Shown piece by piece: positions 45,070 to 57,689 of a stretch of 64,000 bases of DNA. Position 1 is the first letter of the stretch. Every line of letters starts with the position of its first letter. The stretch comes from Luteitalea sp. TBR-22 (GTDB lineage: Bacteria > Acidobacteriota > Vicinamibacteria > Vicinamibacterales > Vicinamibacteraceae), in contig NZ_AP024452.1 of assembly GCF_016865485.1 (NCBI RefSeq), positions 2,626,501 through 2,690,500 of the forward strand, written 5' to 3'. The translations under genes and the position numbers were made by a program. The notes beneath the pieces were generated by a model, which ran no database searches, was not told where the DNA came from, and worked only from the letters and a program-made list of their open reading frames with translations.

Positions 45070-45075
45070 TACAAT
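45070..45075 (+). promoter_or_regulatory. putative -10 box overlapping a false ATG
   Basis: TACAAT covers the ATG at 45074 and lies 13 nt before a strong GGAGG (45089-45093). This suggests transcription begins near 45082 and the protein starts at the TTG at 45101. Confidence 0.42.
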
Positions 45076-45100
45076 GCCGCGATCGCACGGAGGCAACTGG

Positions 45101-45652
45101 TTGGCACAGCGCGTCACGGCCCGCAAGGGCAGCAGCAAGAAGAACGGATCGGCCCGCCGCTTCGAGTACGCTCCCCTCGTCATCGAGGGCACCAAGGTCA
45201 AGCTGAAGTCCCGCGTCGCGGGCCAGGTGGTCAAGCTCCCCGACGATTACCCGTTGCCGGCGATCGAGCGGCGCAGGAGTGGCGTGCACGGCTGGGGCGT
45301 GTTCGCGCTCGAGCGCATCCCGAAGAACAAGCGGATCATCTACTACGCGGGCCAGTTGGTGGGCGCCAAGGAAAGCCACGACCGCGAGGTCGCGTACCTC
45401 GAGAAGGGCTGCATCTGGTGCTTCGAGCTGAGCACCCGCTGGGCCGTCGACGCGATGTACGGCGGCAACGTCGCGCGCTTCATCAACCACGCCTGCAAGC
45501 CGAACTGCTACAGCCACATCATCGACGGCATCATCTGGATCCGCGCCGGCCGCACCATCGAGGCAGGCGAGGAACTCTCGTACGACTACTACACGGGCGG
45601 CACCGCCGAGATCCCGTGCAAGTGCCGTCCGGGCTGCAAGGGCCAGATTTAG
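45101..45652 (+). CDS. SET-domain lysine methyltransferase-like protein
   Basis: 183 residues from TTG at 45101, which has GGAGG 7 nt upstream; an ATG at 45074 adds 9 residues but lies inside a -10-like box. A Lys/Arg-rich N-terminus (TARKGSSKKNGSARRF) precedes a complete SET core: GVHGWGVFALERIPKNKRI, FINHACKPNC (from Asn129), EELSYDYY, and a post-SET cysteine cluster CKCRPGC. The family transfers methyl groups from SAM to protein lysines. In bacteria the targets are mostly unknown; a basic DNA-binding or ribosomal protein is a guess only. Confidence 0.9.
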   Translation: MAQRVTARKGSSKKNGSARRFEYAPLVIEGTKVKLKSRVAGQVVKLPDDYPLPAIERRRSGVHGWGVFALERIPKNKRIIYYAGQLVGAKESHDREVAYLEKGCIWCFELSTRWAVDAMYGGNVARFINHACKPNCYSHIIDGIIWIRAGRTIEAGEELSYDYYTGGTAEIPCKCRPGCKGQI

Positions 45653-45672
45653 CCCACGTCGCTGGTAATGCG

Positions 45673-46332
45673 TTGATCACCCGCGTCCTGTACCTCCATG
45701 GCTTCGCCTCGTCGCCGCAGTCGGGCAAGGGGCAGTTCTTCACCGAGCGGTTCGCCGAGGTGGGCATCCCGGTCGTCACGCCCGACCTGAACGCGCCCGA
45801 CTTCGGCACCCTGACGGTCACGCGCATGCTCGACGAAGTGGGGAGCGTGATCGCCCAGGGACCGCCGGGCCCGGTCGTGTTGATGGGATCGAGCATGGGC
45901 GGCTTCGTGGCCTGGAACGCCGCCGCGCGGCTCGCGCCCGTCCTGCCGCACCATCCCATCGCGAAGCTCGTGTTGCTCGCGCCTGCCGTGCTGTTCGGGC
46001 ACGATCGGCGCGACGACTTCGGTCCCGGCGTGGTCGACGAGTGGGAGCGCGCCGGCACGCGCGAGTTCTTCCACTACGGCGAGAACCGGCCGCGCCACCT
46101 GCACTTCGAGTTCTACCGCGATGCGATGACCTACCACGCGGATCAGGCCGTGGTGCACCAGCCGACGCTCATCTTCCAGGGCATGCAGGACGAGGTCGTC
46201 AAGCCGCAGGGCGTCATCGAGTTCTGCCAGGGGCGGCCCAACGTGTCGCTCCGCCTGCTGCAGGATGGCCACCAGTTGCTCGGGCACCTCGACCAGATGT
46301 GGCACGAGACTCGCACGTTCCTCGGCTGCTGA
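45673..46332 (+). CDS. YqiA/YcfP-like alpha/beta hydrolase
   Basis: 219 residues from a TTG. ITRVLYLHGFASSPQSGKG at the start, the nucleophile elbow GSSMGGFVAW, an acid in the QDEVV segment and the His of QDGHQLLGH make a complete triad for a small esterase of the YqiA/UPF0227 type. No ATG or GTG is available near the family start, so TTG at 45673 (20 nt after the SET gene stop) is chosen. Probably co-transcribed with the SET gene. Substrate unknown. Confidence 0.82.
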   Translation: MITRVLYLHGFASSPQSGKGQFFTERFAEVGIPVVTPDLNAPDFGTLTVTRMLDEVGSVIAQGPPGPVVLMGSSMGGFVAWNAAARLAPVLPHHPIAKLVLLAPAVLFGHDRRDDFGPGVVDEWERAGTREFFHYGENRPRHLHFEFYRDAMTYHADQAVVHQPTLIFQGMQDEVVKPQGVIEFCQGRPNVSLRLLQDGHQLLGHLDQMWHETRTFLGC

Positions 46333-48584
46333 CCCGCGGCCTCGCGGCACTCGCCGCGCTGCTACTCGCCGGTTGCGGCGCTCCCGCAGATCCGCCGGCC
46401 CCCGCGGGGCGCCCCCACGTCTCTTCCAGGTCGTCGTCGGCGGGCCGCAGCGACGTCTCACCTGACGATGGCACCGGCCTGACGGGGGGCGACTCGCTCC
46501 TCGCGCGCGTCGCGTGGATGCGCCTCACCTGGCCCGGCAGGCAGGTGCTCGGCTCCAACCTCGCCGAGCGCCTCGACGACGAGGTCCACGCGGGGTCGCT
46601 GTTCAAGCTGGTGGTCGCCCGTGCCGCGGTGGCGCAGGGGCTCGTGACCCCCGACCTGCGCCTCGCCTGTCCTCGTCGCGTGCGCGTCGCGGGCCGCGAG
46701 GTCGACTGTGTCCACCCCGACCTCGGCCGACCGCTCGCCCTCGACGACGCGCTCGCGCACTCCTGCAATCACTTCTTCGTTCGCCTTGCGGAGCGACTCG
46801 ATCGGCGAAGCCTCGAGCAGACGTTCCGCGCGTTGGCGGCAACGGCCGGTGTCAGCGCGCCGCCGCTCGGCGCAGCCCCGATCGGCCTCGTGGGGCTCGG
46901 CCTCGAGGGGCCTCGGCTCGGCTTGCGAGCCTGGGCCGGGATCGTACTGGCGGCGATGGACGTCGACGCGTCGGCCGGCGCCGGGGCCGACCTGATCGTC
47001 CGCGGCGTGCGTGGCGCAGCGCGCGAAGGCACGGCAATCGCGCTGCGTGACGGTCAGCACGAGGTGCGTGCCAAGACCGGCACCACCCTGCTCGGCGAGG
47101 GTGTGCAGGATGGCCGCGTCGTGGCGTGGCGTCCGGAAACCGGCGAGGCCGTCGTGGTTCGCGCCGCCGGTGTCCCCGGGCGTGATGCCGCTCGCCTCGC
47201 ACGGGCCGTGTGGGACGCCGCGGATGCGGCCGATCAGCCCCGCGTGCGCGTCGGCCGCGAGCGCGAGGCTGGCGCCGGCCCCCCTCGCGTCGATCGGGTG
47301 CCGCTCGAGACCTACGTCGCGGGAGTCGTCGCGGCGGAGGGGGAGTCCTCGATGCCACCGGCGGCGCTCGACGCGCTGGCCGTGGCGGTTCGCAGCTACG
47401 CCCTCGCGCCCTCGACGCGGCACGCGCGCGACGGCTACGACCTCTGCGACACGACGCACTGCCAGGTGCTCGGCGCGGCGACCTCCTGGAGTCGGGCCGC
47501 GGCGGCGCGGACCTCCGGACTGTTGCTGGCGCGCCGCGGGCGCGTGGTGGCCGTGCCGTACTCGGCCTCCTGCGGCGGGCGCCTCGTCTCGCCGTCGGAC
47601 CTGTGGGCCGGACCCGATGAGCGCGTGACGCGGACTGGCCCGGACCCGGCGGGCCACCAGGTGGGGGAGTGGTCCAGCGAAGTGCCGGTCGCGCGGCTGC
47701 TCTCCGCGCTGCAGTCGGCCGGACACCGTGGCGACGTGCTGCGCGACGTCCGGATCGAGGCACGTGCCGCCGGCGGAATGCCGACGCGGCTGGCGCTCGA
47801 CGGCCTCGCCCCGGCCTCCATCGACGCCACGACCTTCCGGCACGTCGTCGGGCGGGCCATCGGCTGGGACGTCCTCAAGAGCCACACGTTCGAGGTGACG
47901 CGCACGGGCCGCGGGTATCGCTTCACGGGCCTCGGCAAGGGACACGGTGCCGGCCTCTGCCTGCGCGGCGCCACGGTGCTCGCCGCGCGCGGCGACTCGC
48001 TGGCCGAGGTTCTCGACACCTACGTGCCCGGCGCGTCCCTCCAGGCCAGGCAGGACATCGTCGCGCTGCGGGTGCCGTCGGCGTGGGAGCCGCAGGCCGC
48101 GACACTGCTGGCTCGCGCCCGGCGCCAGCTCGCCTTGGAGCGTCACGCGCTCGGGGTCGTGGACGGCCGCGACGTGCGGGTGGAGATCCACCCGACCCGC
48201 GAGGCGTACCAGCGTGCAACGGGGCGGGCCTGGTGGACCGGCGCGAGTACCCGCGCCCTCGGGGGCAAGCGATACCGTATCGATGTGGCGCCGATGCCCG
48301 GACAGCCCTCGATCACCGCCATCGAAGCGACCCTGGCTCACGAGTTCGTGCACGTGCTCACGTGGCCCCTGCTCGCCAGCGGCCCCGCCTGGCTCGCCGA
48401 AGGGCTCGCGCACGGCGTCGCGCGAGGGGCGCTGGCGCCCCGGCAGGACGGCCCATGCCCGACCGACGACGAGATCCGTCGCCCCGGCAGCCTCGAGCGC
48501 ATGCAGGAGGTCTACGGCCGGGCGGCGGGCTGCGTGGCGCGCGCCCTGCCGGACGGCCTCGCCTCCTGGCGGGCCCTCCGCTGA
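46299..48584 (+). CDS. lipoprotein fusing transpeptidase-like, SpoIID and metallopeptidase domains
   Basis: 761 residues from a GTG at 46299 that overlaps the previous gene by 34 nt. A lipobox-type signal (LAALAALLLAGC) is followed by a penicillin-binding-like domain with all three motifs: Ser100-xx-Lys103 (SLFK), Ser155-Cys-Asn (SCN) and Lys259-Thr-Gly (KTG). A SpoIID/LytB domain comes next (VPLETYVAGVVAAEGE, DALAVAVRSYAL, SASCGGRL, GLGKGHGAGLCLRGA), then a gluzincin-type peptidase with HExxH at 681-685 (HEFVH) and Glu701. It is expected to act on peptidoglycan from the membrane. The three-part layout is unusual; each domain looks intact. No other start codon is available between 46299 and the lipobox. 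Confidence 0.82.
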   Translation: MARDSHVPRLLTRGLAALAALLLAGCGAPADPPAPAGRPHVSSRSSSAGRSDVSPDDGTGLTGGDSLLARVAWMRLTWPGRQVLGSNLAERLDDEVHAGSLFKLVVARAAVAQGLVTPDLRLACPRRVRVAGREVDCVHPDLGRPLALDDALAHSCNHFFVRLAERLDRRSLEQTFRALAATAGVSAPPLGAAPIGLVGLGLEGPRLGLRAWAGIVLAAMDVDASAGAGADLIVRGVRGAAREGTAIALRDGQHEVRAKTGTTLLGEGVQDGRVVAWRPETGEAVVVRAAGVPGRDAARLARAVWDAADAADQPRVRVGREREAGAGPPRVDRVPLETYVAGVVAAEGESSMPPAALDALAVAVRSYALAPSTRHARDGYDLCDTTHCQVLGAATSWSRAAAARTSGLLLARRGRVVAVPYSASCGGRLVSPSDLWAGPDERVTRTGPDPAGHQVGEWSSEVPVARLLSALQSAGHRGDVLRDVRIEARAAGGMPTRLALDGLAPASIDATTFRHVVGRAIGWDVLKSHTFEVTRTGRGYRFTGLGKGHGAGLCLRGATVLAARGDSLAEVLDTYVPGASLQARQDIVALRVPSAWEPQAATLLARARRQLALERHALGVVDGRDVRVEIHPTREAYQRATGRAWWTGASTRALGGKRYRIDVAPMPGQPSITAIEATLAHEFVHVLTWPLLASGPAWLAEGLAHGVARGALAPRQDGPCPTDDEIRRPGSLERMQEVYGRAAGCVARALPDGLASWRALR

Positions 48585-48666: not shown

Positions 48667-49230
48667 ATGAACGCCCCAGCGACCTTCCTCACCTCCTCCG
48701 GCCTGGCCGACCGCGACCAGCGCCTCCTGGCCAGCGCCCGGCAAGGCGACCTCGACGCCTTCGAGGCGCTCGTGCGGCGGCACCAGCGGCGGGTGTACAC
48801 GCTGGCCTGGCACGCCGTGCGGGACCAGATGCTGGCCGAGGAAATCGCGCAGGACGTCTTCATGCAGTTGCACGCGAGCCTGGCGCGCATCGAGTCGGCC
48901 GCCCACCTGGGCGCCTGGCTGCGGCGGACGACGACCCACCGGATCATCGACACGCTGCGGGTGCGCAAGCCGGCCCGGCCGCTCGACGAGGTCGCCGAGC
49001 CGCAGGTGGGCCACGCGGCGGGTGACCCGCTCGCGACGCGCCTGGTGCACCGTGCGCTGCAGCGGCTCGCGCCGCGTCCGCGCCTGGTGGTGATGCTGCG
49101 CTACATGGACGACCTCGCGCCGACCGAGATCGCCGAGACCCTCGACATGTCCCTGAACACCGTCAAGAGTCACCTGCGCCGCGGCATGAGTGTGCTGCGG
49201 GCGCGCCTGCAGCGGGAGGTCCTGCGATGA
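48667..49230 (+). CDS. RNA polymerase sigma factor, sigma-70 family (ECF type)
   Basis: 187 residues: region 2 (LLASARQGDLDAFEALVRRHQRRVYTLAW, QDVFMQLHASLARIE, LGAWLRRTTTHRIID) and region 4 (QRLAPRPRLVVMLRYMDDLAPTEIAETLDMSLNTVKSHLRRG). No region 1.1 or 3, as in ECF factors. The stop overlaps the next start (ATGA at 49227), so it is translationally coupled to a probable regulator. It directs transcription of an unknown stress regulon. Confidence 0.94.
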   Translation: MNAPATFLTSSGLADRDQRLLASARQGDLDAFEALVRRHQRRVYTLAWHAVRDQMLAEEIAQDVFMQLHASLARIESAAHLGAWLRRTTTHRIIDTLRVRKPARPLDEVAEPQVGHAAGDPLATRLVHRALQRLAPRPRLVVMLRYMDDLAPTEIAETLDMSLNTVKSHLRRGMSVLRARLQREVLR

Positions 49231-49583
49231 ATCCCGATGCCCGGATCGGGCGAGCGCTCGCCCCCGTCGACCCGCCCGACGGCTTCGCCCAGCGCGTCCG
49301 CGCCCGCGTCGAGCGCGAGATCCAGCCGACGCCGGCGCCGCGCAACCGCGTCACGCGCCTGCTGGCGATTGCCGCCACCGTGCTCGCGGTGCTGGCCGGG
49401 CCCCTCGCGTGGCACGAGTACGAAACCCGGCGCGAGGCCCTGGCGGCCCGTGCCCAGGTCCTGCTCGCGCTGCAGATCGCGAGCCGTGAGTTGAACTCGG
49501 CGCACCGCAAGGTGGTGCGCCCCGTGTCCCCCGCCCTGGCGGCGACCGCTGCCGGGGCTCCAGAAAAGGAAGGACGCCCGTGA
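49227..49583 (+). CDS. small membrane protein, putative anti-sigma factor
   Basis: 118 residues with a short cytosolic N-terminus (MNPDARIGRALAPVDPPDGF), one transmembrane segment (about 44-63, LLAIAATVLAVLAGPLAW) and a C-terminal helical part. It overlaps the sigma gene by 4 nt and the DUF4252 gene by 1 nt. No zinc-binding anti-sigma motif (HxxxCxxC) is visible, so the anti-sigma role rests on position alone. Confidence 0.75.
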   Translation: MNPDARIGRALAPVDPPDGFAQRVRARVEREIQPTPAPRNRVTRLLAIAATVLAVLAGPLAWHEYETRREALAARAQVLLALQIASRELNSAHRKVVRPVSPALAATAAGAPEKEGRP

Positions 49584-50143
49584 TGCGTCGAGTGATCGTG
49601 ATGTGTGTCGTGCTGTCCGGGCTGCTCGTCGCCGTCCCGGCCCGTGGCCAGCAACTGCAACTGCCGGATCTGTCGCGCCTCAGCGCCAGCGCCACCGACG
49701 TGGTCGACGTGTCGGTCGATCAGGCGCTGCTCGGCATGGCCGCCGCCTTCATGGGCAACGGCCCTGACGACGCTCAGGTGAAGTCGCTTGTGTCGTCGCT
49801 GAAGGGGATTTACGTGAAGAGCTTCACGTTTGCCAAGGACGGGGCGTTCGACCCGTCCTTGCTGGAGCCGGTGCGCCGGCAACTGGCGACGGGCCAGTGG
49901 TCGCGCCTCATGTCGGCCAAGTCGTCCAAGGACGGCAGCGACATGGCGGTGTACCTCTGGCGCAACGGCGATCGTCCCGGCGGGCTCGCCGTGCTGAGCG
50001 TGGAGCCGCGCGAGGTGACCGTGGTCAACATCGTCGGCTCCATCGACCTGGCGCAGTTGCAGGCGCTGCAGGGCAAGTTCGGCGTGCCGGATCTCGAACT
50101 GGGCGACACGAAGGGGCCGAAGGGACCCAAGGGTCCGAAGTAG
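49583..50143 (+). CDS. DUF4252-like secreted protein with GPK tail
   Basis: 186 residues; signal peptide MRRVIVMCVVLSGLLVAVPARG, then an alpha/beta domain typical of DUF4252 proteins that often sit in ECF sigma operons. The end is DTKGPKGPKGPK, collagen-like GPK triplets encoded by AAGGG(A/T)CC units. ATG at 49583 overlaps the previous stop as TGATG; a GTG at 49580 is an alternative. Third gene of the sigma operon. Confidence 0.8.
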   Translation: MRRVIVMCVVLSGLLVAVPARGQQLQLPDLSRLSASATDVVDVSVDQALLGMAAAFMGNGPDDAQVKSLVSSLKGIYVKSFTFAKDGAFDPSLLEPVRRQLATGQWSRLMSAKSSKDGSDMAVYLWRNGDRPGGLAVLSVEPREVTVVNIVGSIDLAQLQALQGKFGVPDLELGDTKGPKGPKGPK

Positions 50144-50979: not shown

Positions 50980-51408
50980 CTAGTCCTGTGTGACCTCGCA
51001 TCGGACGCCGATCGGTCCGTCCGTGGCGATCTCGTCGATCCTCGGCGTGAGCGAGGCGTCGACGTTCACCTCGAGCTCGTAACTGATGTACACGTCGAGC
51101 GTGGCAGCCGCCGGCGTGCCCGTCAACGTCACGTCGATTCCGCCGTTGCTGCTCTTGCCGCGGACGGCGAGTGCCTCCGAGGACACGCGGACGTCCGCGC
51201 TGGCCGGAAGGGCGACGCGCACGGCTGCGCCCTCGTCCACGCGGCCCCGCCAGTGGGCGAGCCGCCACGTGTCACCGGCCCGCTGCAGCCGCCAGATCCG
51301 TAGAGGGTCCAGCCCGATGCTGCGGCACGTGACGACCCGTGGCGCGACCTGGGCCACGGCGGTCGCGCCCGGCGCGGCAAGGAGCATCAGGGGAAGCAGC
51401 ATCGTCAT
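50980..51408 (-). CDS. secreted hypothetical protein, last gene of the macroglobulin operon
   Basis: 142 residues from the ATG at 51408, which overlaps the preceding stop by one base (TGATG). It has an N-terminal signal (MTMLLPLMLLAAPGATAVA) and a mature beta-rich domain (ISYELEVNVD near the C-terminus). I do not recognise the family. Probably translated with the membrane protein upstream. Confidence 0.75.
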   Translation of the reverse strand: MTMLLPLMLLAAPGATAVAQVAPRVVTCRSIGLDPLRIWRLQRAGDTWRLAHWRGRVDEGAAVRVALPASADVRVSSEALAVRGKSSNGGIDVTLTGTPAAATLDVYISYELEVNVDASLTPRIDEIATDGPIGVRCEVTQD

Positions 51409-52220
51409 CAGGCGTGCTCGTCGAGGCGAGTGCCCGTGGTGGCCGGTGGCGGCGGTGGCGGAGGTGTGCCCGAGGAGGCCGGCGGCGCGACCACGCCGGC
51501 GGGAGGCGGCACGGCACGCGCAGCGGTGACGATCGACAGCGCCCAGGCTACCTGCGACAGGGCATAGATGACGACGAGCTTGGTCGCCGTGAACACCAGT
51601 TCCACCGTCGTGGCCGGCAGGCCCTTCGGTCGCCAGTAGACCCAGCGCCACGGCAGCCACACCAACAGCACCACGCCGGCCAGGGTGACGAGCACGAGGC
51701 GCCAGTGCAGGCCAGCGGTCAGCCACTTCAGCGTCAGCACGTCGCGTCGCTCGTATCCGGCGGCCCAGGCCAGGGCGGTGGCCAGCCAGGCCGGGACGAG
51801 CACCCACTGGATCAGCACGACGATCCAGTGCACGGCGGTGTGCAGCCAACCGGTCCGCGTGATGTCGCCGGCAGCGATGGCGGCCGCATCCACCTGGCCT
51901 GCGTTGGCCATCCACCAGCGCTCGAACCAGCCGGCCCCGCCGCAGACCATGCCGAGCAGGACGATCGTGAACAGGATGAGCGGCAGGTGGCGCACCGCTG
52001 CGCCGAGGCTGGCCCAGGGCGCACGGTGATGCACCACCCCGTGTGCCGCCGAGGCCGACGACAGCACGAGGAGGGCGGCGGCCAGCGCCACGAGCAGCAC
52101 CGAGGCCGCCAGCATGAGGACGTTGGCTTCCGGCGTGTGCAGGAAGCCGAGCAACGCCGCACCCCCCAGCGCGTCCACCGCGCCGATCCAGAGGGCGGTC
52201 CTGAGCACGGTGGCCATCAT
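51408..52220 (-). CDS. integral membrane protein, alpha-2-macroglobulin operon
   Basis: 270 residues with about six transmembrane segments and a Pro/Ala-rich C-terminal tail (APPASSGTPPPPPPPATTG) that should lie in the cytosol or periplasm. No enzyme motif seen. It overlaps the macroglobulin gene stop (ATGA at 52217-52220). Could anchor or regulate the macroglobulin system; function unknown. Confidence 0.78.
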   Translation of the reverse strand: MMATVLRTALWIGAVDALGGAALLGFLHTPEANVLMLAASVLLVALAAALLVLSSASAAHGVVHHRAPWASLGAAVRHLPLILFTIVLLGMVCGGAGWFERWWMANAGQVDAAAIAAGDITRTGWLHTAVHWIVVLIQWVLVPAWLATALAWAAGYERRDVLTLKWLTAGLHWRLVLVTLAGVVLLVWLPWRWVYWRPKGLPATTVELVFTATKLVVIYALSQVAWALSIVTAARAVPPPAGVVAPPASSGTPPPPPPPATTGTRLDEHA

Positions 52221-55200: not shown

Positions 55201-56935
55201 GCACCGCGGCAACGCCTCCGCCGCGGTAGTCCACGGCGCGGAGCCGCAGCGTGACGGGCGTGCCGGGACGGGCCACGCTCGGCGTCGCGCGCGTCGCGAT
55301 CAGGAAATCGCCGTAGGTGGCTACCAGGCGGCCACTGCCGCTCACTTCCAGGTCGCTCGCGTCGGTGACGCGTGCCTCGAAGCGCACCTGCACGTCCTCG
55401 TGGTTCTCGTCCTGGACGGGCAGGTCGACCTTGAAGGTGGCCTGCCCGCTCGCGTCGAGGCGCCCCTCGAGCGTGTCGATCTCGTCACCGTAGAAATAGC
55501 TGTTGCCCTCCGACTCCTCGCCGTCGGAGTCGACCCACCGCAACGGCGAGTAGTACGGGCCGAGGAACACCGCCAGCTTCACGTCGGCCTCGCGCACCGG
55601 CTGGCCGAAGTAGTAGCGCGCGTTCACGGTCACGGTGACCGTCTGGCCCTGGCGGGCCATCTTCACGGCCGGCGTGACGCTGACCTCGTATTCGGGCTTC
55701 CGGTACTCCTGCACCTCGAAGCTGGCGCTGGCCTTCTGCTCGCCCGAGGCGACCTCGACGGTGTAATGACCGAGGGGCGCGGCCTCCGGCAGCGTCACCT
55801 CCGTGTCGACCGCACCATAGGCGTCGACGTCCTTGCGCACCCGCTGGATCACCTTGCCCGTGCGGTCGGTGATGCTCATCTCCACCGACGGCTGGTCGAA
55901 GGGCAGCAGGCCCGTGCCGTTGCGCCAGCGCAGGATGGCCTTGGCCTTCACCACGTGACCGGGGCGATACACGGGGCGGTCGGTGAAGACGTGGGCCACC
56001 AGCTCGCGGGCCGGCGCCTCCAGGCCGTACGTGGACGGCGTGCTCGCGACCATCTGCTGGCCGCAGCGGGCGACGGTGATCAGGTCCTCCGGCCGCGCCT
56101 CGGCGATGGGCAGCGCGAGCAGGCCACGGGCGTCGGTGGTGCCCGTACCCAACCGCGCCTTGTCGGCCAGGGCGGTGACCTCGCAGCCGGCGACGGGCTG
56201 GCCCTTGACGCGATCGACCAGGTAGGCGAGCACGGTGCCGGGCGCCACCTTGGTCACGAGCGCGACGTCGGAGACCATCAGGATCGTGTAGGCGAGTTGC
56301 GTGCCGTGCACGGCCTCGACCAGGTAGATGCCGGGCGCCTTGACCTCGATGGGGATGCGCCGGACGTCGGCGTCGGCCAGCTTCGGCAGCATCTCGCGCC
56401 ACGACGCGACGATCTGCTTGTCGTTGAGCAGCGGGACCTGCGCGTAGGCCTTCAGCCCGAGCTGCACGCGGCGCTGCACGGTGGCCTTGTCGGCGCCGGC
56501 GCGGCGGTGGGCGCGGTACTCATGGCTGGTCTGGCGGCGCAGGAACCGCTGCAGGTCGCCGCGGCGATCGGCCTTCCACGCGGCAATCCGCTCGAGCCAG
56601 GTCTGCTCGGTCGGCACCACGTACTCCTCGCTGCCGAGCATGTGCGGATCCTCGAGGCCCGCGAAGAAGGCGACCGGGTCGTCGACCTTGTAGATCCGGA
56701 AGTCGAGCGAGTCGAGGCGCTCGAACGTGAGCGTGACGTACGGGGCAGCCGCGCTGCGGAAGATCTCGCTGCTCGACAGCGAGAAGGCCGGGCGATCGGC
56801 GGGCCGGGCCTCGTCGCCCTGGGCGAGCAGCGACGTGGTCAGCGCGGTCACGGCCAGCGGCGCCAGCAGGGCGGCGCGAAGCGACGGGGTTCGGAACAGC
56901 ATGGCGACGCCTCGTGCGAGGCCGGGGATCCTCAT
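52217..56935 (-). CDS. alpha-2-macroglobulin family protein (YfaS-like)
   Basis: 1572 residues. A signal peptide (from MLFRTPSLRAALLAPLAV) is followed by MG-type macroglobulin domains; FTDRPVYRPGHVVKAKAILR marks the MG2 region. The thioester motif is GCTEQ (Cys1084-Thr-Glu-Gln), so the thioester is intact, and a C-terminal receptor-like domain follows. These proteins trap proteases attacking the cell surface, usually in the periplasm. A DUF1175 partner overlaps by 4 nt at its 5' side, as in the yfaST arrangement of enterobacteria. The first ATG (56935) or the one 11 codons later could be the start. Confidence 0.93.
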   Translation of the reverse strand: MRIPGLARGVAMLFRTPSLRAALLAPLAVTALTTSLLAQGDEARPADRPAFSLSSSEIFRSAAAPYVTLTFERLDSLDFRIYKVDDPVAFFAGLEDPHMLGSEEYVVPTEQTWLERIAAWKADRRGDLQRFLRRQTSHEYRAHRRAGADKATVQRRVQLGLKAYAQVPLLNDKQIVASWREMLPKLADADVRRIPIEVKAPGIYLVEAVHGTQLAYTILMVSDVALVTKVAPGTVLAYLVDRVKGQPVAGCEVTALADKARLGTGTTDARGLLALPIAEARPEDLITVARCGQQMVASTPSTYGLEAPARELVAHVFTDRPVYRPGHVVKAKAILRWRNGTGLLPFDQPSVEMSITDRTGKVIQRVRKDVDAYGAVDTEVTLPEAAPLGHYTVEVASGEQKASASFEVQEYRKPEYEVSVTPAVKMARQGQTVTVTVNARYYFGQPVREADVKLAVFLGPYYSPLRWVDSDGEESEGNSYFYGDEIDTLEGRLDASGQATFKVDLPVQDENHEDVQVRFEARVTDASDLEVSGSGRLVATYGDFLIATRATPSVARPGTPVTLRLRAVDYRGGGVAAVPVTIDLVRTWWDENSGEQKREVITTGTVTTGADGRASWETKAPAAGGSYRLEARAMSGDRQVTDDSFVWVPGATEEAYESDSESIELVTDKGSYAPGETARVAVRGTAPTVPVLLTKEARSLTWYDLRQPTRDGVFDVAVTDADLGDTWVNLLYVKDDKVYYAEKKLRVPTTSRALALEITADKAVYRPGEPGTFRVRALDAAGAPVQAQVAIGVVDEALYGVRPDTTEDPLRVFYRTEYSRVSTDYSRQYYFMGYSGTLRLKLAERRRPLSLADFKGDTPGRPRVRKLFPDAIFWSPSVVTGPDGTATVKVDYPDSLTTWRLTARAVTQQTQAGMGVARTVTTRDLLLRLVPPRFLTERDEVRVPVIVHNYQEGAPAPVEVTASATGLEARSTGPQVVTVPNGGEARTEWAFAASSVGTATITAAASAPAASDAMELSLPVKPFGARREAGTSGSTPAGATRTVELAIPEQSNPAARAVVVSVMPSMAGSLLGALDDLVNYPYGCTEQTVSSFVPNLLVMRTLDQLKLAPTERMGMLDRVSRSGLDKLLRLQHENGAWGWWKTDDDHPFMTAYALYGLLEARAARLEVPYDALHKGANALAQQLQQAPTMVPELKAYAAYVLARAAKADTRPSVDGFELAGLVNELWGRRSDITPYGQAWLLLALHAQGDARAGELAGMLSTRAQTQGDLAWWPAENDPLLGDWGDATADATAAVVQALAAVRPTDPLIDPAVRWLLANRQSGYTWNSTKQTAMVLYGLLGAMQGRKEAPAATTVTITVNGQSQSVSFAPEDWTRPFPAVVTLPASAGKSSVTITTNGGPAYWTATARYYDTAAGLERSGSRKLALSRKYFALAPVRRDGRVVYEERAFSGSAAPGELILVRLVVAGADDWRYLMIEDPIPAGTEAVTRPDQLELARPPDWTYGSHREYRDDRVALFLDALPGRAEFTYLLRVTTPGQFRAMPAQVVPMYVPGVHASSAAMTLTVPSPQESPR

Positions 56936-57594
56936 GGCACCCTCAGTCGATAGACCCCGAGGAAGGCGGGGTTGTCGGCCACCGGACGCCAGCGCGGCGC
57001 CGGGTGGCGCCGCAGGTCGGCCAGCGTGGCCTTGCGCATCTCACCGGGCGTCCCCGTCGCGGTGTCGGGGCCGGTATGGTAGACCACCCAATCGCGGCGG
57101 CCGGGCTCGTACGCCGACTGCCCGACGAACACCATCAGGTGCTCGGGCATCCGACGCGTGTCCTGCTGGAAGGCCAGCAGGTCGCCAGGCCGCGCCGCCG
57201 CGGCGTCGCGGCCGACGAGCGTGGCGTTGAACCGGAGGATGGTGCGCGCGTCGGCGAACTCGGCGTAGCGCGGCGGCGTGTCGCCCGACACCCGGAAAAG
57301 GGGCAGGCTGTCGCCGGTGGCGGCCAGTCGCGCGCGCACGTCGGCGCGCACCTGGCCGCCGGGAATCGCCAGGCGTCGGAGCCACTCGGGGGTGTGCTCC
57401 CGCAGCGCCTCACGCGCCGCGTGGCGGACCAGCCCTGCGCAGTCGGTGACGTCGGGCGTCGGGCGATAGAACTGCGCGTCGGCCAGCAACGTGAACCAGC
57501 CGAGGAAGGCCGCCCGGTCCTGCGCGTCGAGCGTCGGTCGCCCGTGAACGGCGGGCATGACGAGGATTGCGAGGAGCAGCGCGGCCAGACGCAT
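56932..57594 (-). CDS. DUF1175 family protein (YfaT-like)
   Basis: 220 residues. Signal peptide MRLAALLLAILVMPAVHG, then a domain with TDCAGLVRHAAREAL, RPGDLLAFQQD and MPEHLMVFVG, matching DUF1175. The Cys in DCAGLV with His in PEHLMV resembles an NlpC/P60-like arrangement. Encoded directly before the macroglobulin gene (overlap ATGA), as yfaT is found beside yfaS elsewhere. The upstream region holds a minus-strand TATACT box at 57608-57613. Confidence 0.86.
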   Translation of the reverse strand: MRLAALLLAILVMPAVHGRPTLDAQDRAAFLGWFTLLADAQFYRPTPDVTDCAGLVRHAAREALREHTPEWLRRLAIPGGQVRADVRARLAATGDSLPLFRVSGDTPPRYAEFADARTILRFNATLVGRDAAAARPGDLLAFQQDTRRMPEHLMVFVGQSAYEPGRRDWVVYHTGPDTATGTPGEMRKATLADLRRHPAPRWRPVADNPAFLGVYRLRVP

Positions 57595-57689
57595 CGAAGA
57601 CGGGGAAAGTATACAGACGGGCACCGGGCACCGGGCGCCGGGGAGGGCGGATCGCAGGATCGCGAATCGGCAGCCGGTCCCGTGAGCCT

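Follow-up and report, generated by a model that had tools for sequence, protein, structure and literature searches.

What would a bacterium gain from a single envelope protein in which a transpeptidase-like domain, a SpoIID domain and an HExxH zinc-peptidase-like domain are joined? The question is raised by a 761-residue protein encoded in a 64,000-nucleotide stretch of the genome of Luteitalea sp. TBR-22 (Acidobacteriota; contig NZ_AP024452.1, positions 2,626,501 to 2,690,500), referred to below as the window. Among relatives, the gene was found together with a gene for an alpha-2-macroglobulin (A2M) and a DUF1175 gene, and the genetic link between the three is strong. Judged from sequence comparisons, the chances are about even that the protein is a motif-complete counterpart of Escherichia coli YfaQ in a yfa/mag-type envelope-defence locus, where it would act on peptidoglycan as a partner of the thioester A2M and the DUF1175 protein. 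Bacterial alpha-2-macroglobulins resemble complement proteins, and the finding addresses the unsettled question of their role.

The gene is a single open frame from GTG start to stop codon in a genome assembled as one contig of 6.47 Mb. In the original prediction, SLFK, SCN and KTG were read in this order, followed by a SpoIID domain and by HEFVH with a Glu 16 residues after the last His. All of these were recovered (S100-L-F-K103, S155-C-N157, K259-T-G261, H681-E-F-V-H685, and E701 16 residues after H685), and Pfam and NCBIfam matches together with predicted folds indicate one putative envelope protein with three real domains, in each of which an active-site motif is conserved. In the domain search proposed with that prediction, the transpeptidase-fold domain (TP) and the SpoIID domain exceeded the cut-offs: Pfam Transpeptidase PF00905 matched residues 90-178 (E 1.2e-8, 35.0 bits, gathering score 22.1), Pfam SpoIID PF08486 residues 331-408 (E 8.6e-18) and NCBIfam SpoIID_LytB TIGR02669 residues 330-582 (E 9.3e-34). 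The C-terminal zinc-peptidase-like domain (PEP) gave no significant match in the Pfam scan, with SprT-like at E 0.23. No match of the protein was obtained to Pfam Transgly (GT51), for which the five matches in the genome lie at least 0.87 Mb away, in the PHROGs search, or in a plasmid search with P0001. The predicted lipoprotein nature held for the window protein (LLAGC, Cys26) and not for the family at large, as many relatives have no Cys visible after the signal-like stretch.

Structure prediction, proposed at the same stage, returned a penicillin-binding protein (PBP) transpeptidase fold, a SpoIID fold and an M1/collagenase-like C-terminal fold. The full-length model (25-row alignment) had a mean predicted local distance difference test score (pLDDT) of 85.1 and a predicted template modelling score (pTM) of 0.67. 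Its residues 63-314 resembled PBP transpeptidase domains with Z of about 24-25 (4r3j_B: Z 24.8, root-mean-square deviation (rmsd) 3.5, 248 residues), and residues 311-585 resembled Clostridioides difficile SpoIID (5i1t: Z 26.0, rmsd 3.3, 259 residues). The C-terminal domain was modelled separately (45 rows; pLDDT 94.9, pTM 0.91) and resembled M1 aminopeptidases and microbial collagenases (7u0l_A: Z 10.3, rmsd 3.7, 149 residues; 4ar1: Z 10.2, rmsd 3.7, 157 residues), with a best Foldseek E of only 0.018. Both groups are HExxH..E peptidases, and PEP combines the HExxH motif, the downstream Glu and, in its predicted structure, the clan fold of gluzincin-type enzymes (Peptidase MA clan). Among 45 relatives scanned with Pfam at E <= 0.1, Peptidase_MA_2 was matched in 8 (best E 0.0026) and DUF1570 in 14 (best E 1.8e-4), and neither in the window protein. 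SpoIID residues E347, H375, C383, H387 and C388 aligned with E101, H134, C140, H145 and C146 of C. difficile SpoIID, the correspondence being read by counting along the alignment with that protein. In the reference protein E101 is catalytic; in vitro, C140A and H145A lose zinc binding and activity, and H134A and C146A keep part (PMC6221140, partial text).

The architecture is conserved. A further 24 sequences with the TP-SpoIID-PEP order, among them L031 with a masked stretch and L035 without its N-terminus, aligned end to end at 35-59% identity, and the motif columns were invariant or nearly so. PF00905 matched 25 of 25 members of the family alignment A1 at E <= 0.01. GSxxK was present in 24 of the 25 TP-bearing frames (window's included), SxN and K[TS][GA] in all 25. 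Relatives were collected with six peptide patterns and 80 of 99 were kept; many were plain SpoIID genes, so that the collection is no census. Three proteins are duplicates (L041 = L024, L049 = L027, L018 = L034), and the TP state is not readable in rows cut by contig ends (L017, L019 (= L132), L022, L032). Two family members on contigs titled Acidimicrobiia and Cyanobacteria (L040, L041) group within Acidobacteriota; these contigs are probably misassigned bins.

For co-occurrence, the genome of the window and 59 relatives were used. DUF1175 was above the cut-off in 22 of the 60 genomes (G029 gave one sub-threshold match). The better-scoring, mostly shorter class of A2M (PF00207 E <= 3.9e-17) was found in those very 22, as was the three-domain gene family, and the remaining 38 yielded none of these three in this form. 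The division of A2M into classes is our own, by PF00207 score and frame length; the second class (E >= 3.8e-16, frames of 1936-2092 aa) was present in 10 of the 60 genomes, with both classes in G045, and lay away from the three-domain family wherever both occurred. Within the 22, TP was complete in 17 and partial in two (G023, G008; masked stretch, contig end), and the contig ended before the TP region in three (G003, G014, G049). Since families f2, f4, f5, f6 and f11 each hold genomes with and without the set, joint gain or loss of its members must have occurred at least twice. A contig was shared by DUF1175 and A2M in 19 of the 22 genomes, and in 15 the family gene and the A2M match were no more than 10 kb apart; a comparison SpoIID gene in 16 of these genomes came as close in none (nearest 20 kb). 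Fisher and binomial values for these proximity counts ignore kinship and were not used. Two of 14 control genomes, those of E. coli and Thermotoga maritima, gave DUF1175 matches, and each has A2M as well.

Across the phylum (OTHER ARRANGEMENTS), DUF1175 was found in 15 of 149 genomes. By coordinates, a PF00207 match lay within 4 kb of it in 15 of 15, and TP, SpoIID and PEP were present in all 15, in four arrangements. They formed a single TP-SpoIID-PEP gene in five Vicinamibacterales-type genomes and two of family f34, two genes (TP and SpoIID-PEP) in G172, two genes of other composition (TP and PEP-SpoIID) in six f36 genomes, and one 787-residue TP-PEP-SpoIID frame in G139 (L174). As the three parts are united beside A2M in several ways, inherited neighbourhood alone is a poor explanation. 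The f36 TP genes were missed by a narrow TP profile at E 0.1 and had no Pfam match in those scanned; a wider TP profile held one f36 row, so that its E-values for f36 are not independent. Profile-profile comparison without f36 rows gave 87-94.5% for f36 TP, 99.4% for SpoIID and 96.1% for PEP, with other locus proteins at <= 0.5%; in the controls for f36 TP, other locus proteins reached <= 0.3% and 30 shuffles <= 1.1%. A Saganbacteria contig (L055) carries TP, SpoIID, an AMMECR1 gene and a CVEQ A2M in series; the gene between SpoIID and A2M was considered as DUF1175 and rejected, being AMMECR1. TP-like frames were also seen overlapping or directly adjoining SpoIID frames on six contigs (L087, L098, L110, L154, L157, L158) whose short flanking sequence gave no A2M match, and TP-SpoIID pairs may exist outside A2M loci.

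Many relatives lack TP, and L021 keeps only its two ends. Mapping the TP label on the SpoIID tree took 8 changes, of which well-supported branches force no fewer than 5; some of the 8 stem from contig-cut rows (L017, L019) and separate TP genes, and separate TP genes and plain SpoIID paralogues were scored as other states. The ten TP-less genomes of the 60 (G007, G010, G017, which is 87% complete, G022, G030, G032, G041, G048, G050, G056) stand at about five places in the tree and have neither DUF1175 nor this class of A2M. Of the 26 rows with TP, 25 are readable at the zinc site, and all 25 have it intact; the other, L006 (= L033), has a frame break near the C-terminus. Among distinct TP-less rows the site was intact in 5 of 17, or 5 of 15 if L048 and L051, counted as TP-less and starting at a contig end about 60 residues before SpoIID, are set aside. 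SpoIID residues E347, C383, H387, C388, Q389 and H549 were invariant in 26 of 26 TP-bearing and 20 of 20 TP-less rows of a residue table that leaves out L031, which has a masked stretch, and L039, whose contig stops short of the peptidase. Because TP and, largely, PEP are kept with A2M while SpoIID is invariant regardless, TP and largely PEP appear to belong to an A2M-related function. Among closely related gp2 Acidobacteria, L052 has a separate TP gene and HELYH with no Glu at the 701 position, and its close relative L053 has neither TP nor an intact zinc site.

For comparison with known systems, E. coli YfaQ (b2226) was examined. It carries two DUF2300 stretches and a SpoIID stretch above the Pfam cut-off, and aligned with A1 over 328 columns running from TP into SpoIID (61%, E 7.9e-5). 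With a two-row YfaQ profile (E. coli and Citrobacter), TP reached 85-91%, SpoIID 92% and the HExxH end 2.4%; the top score of each domain fell on YfaQ, in the right order, with the other yfa proteins at 0.3, 0.8 and 0.3%. YfaQ appears to have collinear TP-like, SpoIID-like and HExxH parts. GSxxK, KT, HEYLH and the Glu of SpoIID are preserved in it; SxN is replaced by SCG and KTG by KTW, and about half of SpoIID is missing. In the cluster yfaA-yfaT-yfaS-yfaQ-yfaP, the macroglobulin YfaS adjoins YfaQ, and the DUF1175 gene yfaT lies on the other side of YfaS. In the window, A2M is directly preceded by the DUF1175 gene, which is the yfa/mag-type locus order. No CxEQ was found in YfaS, whereas the window A2M has CTEQ and in this respect is of type I, not of the thioester-less type II. 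YfaQ matches DUF2300 (PF10062), but the three-domain protein gave no match to it at E <= 1, nor did its genome at E <= 0.001; the protein is therefore not filed as DUF2300, and its proposed relation to YfaQ is a distant one. DUF1175 bears a likeness to NlpC/P60, as two of the six DUF1175 proteins scanned exceeded the NlpC/P60 cut-off.

The combination had been put forward as new. No title or abstract describing a TP-SpoIID-peptidase combination or the make-up of YfaQ was found among the open-access papers searched, and to that extent the claim stands. As an isolated case it does not: the proposed survey of the architecture, chiefly of Acidobacteriota and with other phyla barely covered (L055), returned a conserved family and split and re-fused forms across that phylum, besides the degenerate YfaQ.

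The Pseudomonas aeruginosa mag operon (magABCDEF) was compared by its published description, from which we infer the matching of Mag to window proteins. It likewise has an A2M with envelope partners, and in partial texts MagD is tied to protection from wall-targeting effectors and, unlike the window A2M, is without a thioester. MagD protects P. aeruginosa against VgrG3 and, limitedly, Tae1 (PMC12663445, partial text). The available part of PMC5764988 names no wall enzyme among the partners of the six-gene mag type; for type I, it describes A2M genes adjoining PBP1c and proposes a joint role in breach repair. The YfhM/ECAM-PBP1c pair resembles the window in placing a thioester A2M beside a gene with a transpeptidase domain, but PBP1c has GT51 and no SpoIID or peptidase part. 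This known type I pairing also occurs in Acidobacteriota, where a CLEQ A2M is followed by a PBP1c-like gene with Transgly, Transpeptidase and BiPBP_C (L173:4690-12746). With class B PBPs (PBP2, PBP3, SpoVD) the window TP shares the fold, SxxK, SxN and KTG; it differs in being compact, without pedimer or membrane helix set-up, and in being followed by SpoIID. The SpoIID domain corresponds to those of C. difficile, Bacillus anthracis and Waddlia in fold (5i1t) and in the Glu and Cys/His zinc residues. The structures 5i1t and 4rwr are without fusion to a transpeptidase or zinc peptidase, whereas the window SpoIID is fused to both; to our knowledge the Waddlia protein is not so fused either. Once an amidase has acted, SpoIID proteins cleave glycan that is free of peptides; the Waddlia protein is, in addition, active on sacculi (PMC6221140, PMC6635528, partial texts).

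Taken together, the shared 22 of 60 genomes, the proximity in 15 of 22 against 0 of 16, the 15 of 15 phylum loci, the retention of the zinc site and the collinearity with YfaQ favour a peptidoglycan-acting partner of A2M, as do, from outside, the protection by MagD and the breach repair proposed for A2M and PBP1c. The protein would be periplasmic and here lipid-anchored; the activity of its sites, its substrates, a contact with A2M and a role in repair we infer with the same balanced confidence. On a breach of the envelope, A2M would trap intruding proteases. SpoIID would bind and trim glycan strands at the damaged wall, chiefly those stripped of stem peptides, TP would engage stem peptides through Ser100 for re-cross-linking or trimming, and the zinc-peptidase domain would cut peptide or protein at the same place. 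Recognition of stripped glycan, engagement of stem peptides and a peptidase in one protein would suit a damaged wall. A wider generalisation is offered tentatively: yfa/mag-type A2M systems, with or without thioester, might have in common a partner with TP, SpoIID and zinc-peptidase parts, be they on separate genes, joined in either of two orders or degenerate as in YfaQ, along with a DUF1175 protein that resembles NlpC/P60, as a complement-like module coupling protease trapping to the sensing and repair of breached peptidoglycan, with YfaQ as the unrecognised PBP of these operons. If the reading proposed here holds, the mag type would, like type I, have a partner with a transpeptidase fold, DUF2300 and DUF1175 would be given a role open to testing, and the three sites could all be assayed in the acidobacterial protein, the motif-complete version. 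A wall-acting arm would then also be at hand for the reported protection by MagD from effectors that degrade peptidoglycan (PMC12663445, partial text).

Several observations weigh against a wall-acting partner of A2M. The family gene lies on another contig than A2M in 6 of the 22 genomes and, as a TP-SpoIID-PEP gene, 28 kb from the DUF1175-A2M pair in G011. In the window it is convergent to A2M at a distance of 3.6 kb, with five frames between and no shared operon, and its direct conserved neighbours are a SET and a UPF0227 gene, kept even without A2M. G057 has a TP copy beside A2M (L123) and a TP-less paralogue elsewhere (L117). Since SpoIID persists where A2M is missing, some of its work does not depend on A2M. 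L036, the sole exception to GSxxK, is without the Lys of SxxK, and L005 and L010 have KTA instead of KTG. The HExxH end of YfaQ is weakly supported (2.4% vs 0.3%), and single-sequence YfaQ reached 4.2% against the TP profile, no better than the decoy AtoD (3.6%). Finally, MagD is dispensable against Burkholderia thailandensis and TseH (PMC12663445, partial text).

The main rival, which we consider unlikely though deserving of weight, is that the protein processes or controls A2M: the zinc peptidase would mature A2M, cut its bait region or remove trapped proteases, and TP and SpoIID would mainly dock to the wall. The zinc site, kept by all TP-bearing, A2M-linked members and often lost by TP-less ones, would fit, as would the processing of P. 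aeruginosa MagD from 165 to 100 kDa (PMC5764988, partial text). The near-complete conservation of SxxK, SxN and KTG, however, exceeds what docking needs. Rather less probable is an ordinary wall-remodelling or septal enzyme in which SpoIID is the working part and the link to A2M merely an inherited neighbourhood; to the SpoIID residues invariant in all 26 TP-bearing and 20 TP-less rows, the SET neighbour that stays without A2M and the septal role of a chlamydial SpoIID (PMC6635528, partial text) are opposed the joint occurrence in 22 of 60 genomes, with joint absence from the other 38, and the four arrangements by DUF1175-A2M. That TP senses beta-lactams or muropeptides without turning them over, the protein signalling wall damage, is improbable: TP is compact and outside the usual synthase set-up, and downstream, at 48667, lies a gene for an ECF sigma factor, but closely packed loci such as L123 have no sigma factor gene between gene and A2M, and no membrane-spanning signalling part was seen. 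A frameshift or misassembly fusing separate genes, named at the outset as a possible refutation, is rejected, for although TP and SpoIID are separate overlapping genes elsewhere (L167, L055, L052, L087, L098), the frame is open in a one-contig genome and 24 other sequences have the same fusion.

Features of the locus, in window coordinates unless a contig is named.
Feature	Position	Strand	Basis
SET-domain gene, conserved upstream neighbour, also in loci without TP	45074..45652	+	PF00856
UPF0227-type alpha/beta hydrolase gene, overlaps start of three-domain gene	45655..46332	+	PF05728
Three-domain gene, 761 aa	46299..48584	+	open frame, translation; one full-length match in own genome
Lipobox LLAGC, Cys26	codon 46374-46376	+	translation
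Predicted TP, residues 63-314; S100/K103, S155/N157, K259-G261	46485..47240	+	PF00905, PBP folds, motif counts
Predicted SpoIID domain, residues 315-585; E347, H375, C383, H387, C388	47241..48053	+	PF08486, TIGR02669, 5i1t fold, residue table
Zinc-peptidase-like domain (PEP), residues 591-752; H681-E682-x-x-H685, E701	48069..48554	+	separate structure model, gluzincin-type folds, residue table
Hydrophobic frame, 251 aa, directly downstream of A2M, no Pfam family	51408..52163	-	frame list, Pfam
Thioester (CTEQ) A2M, 1572 aa	52217..56935	-	Pfam MG2, A2M, A2M_BRD, TED, bMG10; CTEQ
DUF1175 (YfaT-like) gene, 230 aa; 4-base overlap with A2M start	56932..57624	-	PF06672 E 1e-48
TP-PEP-SpoIID fusion beside DUF1175 and CVEQ A2M	L174:12056-14416		

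Among the window neighbours scanned, no match was obtained to DUF2135 (yfaP) or DUF2138 (yfaA), the search being confined to these neighbours. Two frames of L172 were considered for the same roles: a 725-aa frame as DUF2138/YfaA found no support, and a 288-aa frame as YfaP only weak support (blastp E 0.001 vs four proteins, hhalign 34%, no Pfam match). The UPF0227-type gene is kept in many, not all, loci of the family. Between the three-domain gene and A2M, the plus strand carries at 48667-50143 the ECF sigma factor gene, a 118-aa frame that overlaps it by 4 bases and may encode an anti-sigma factor, and a DUF4252 gene. Hydrophobic frames placed likewise after A2M occur in L165, L166 and L123, their likeness to the 251-aa frame of the window being judged by eye without alignment.

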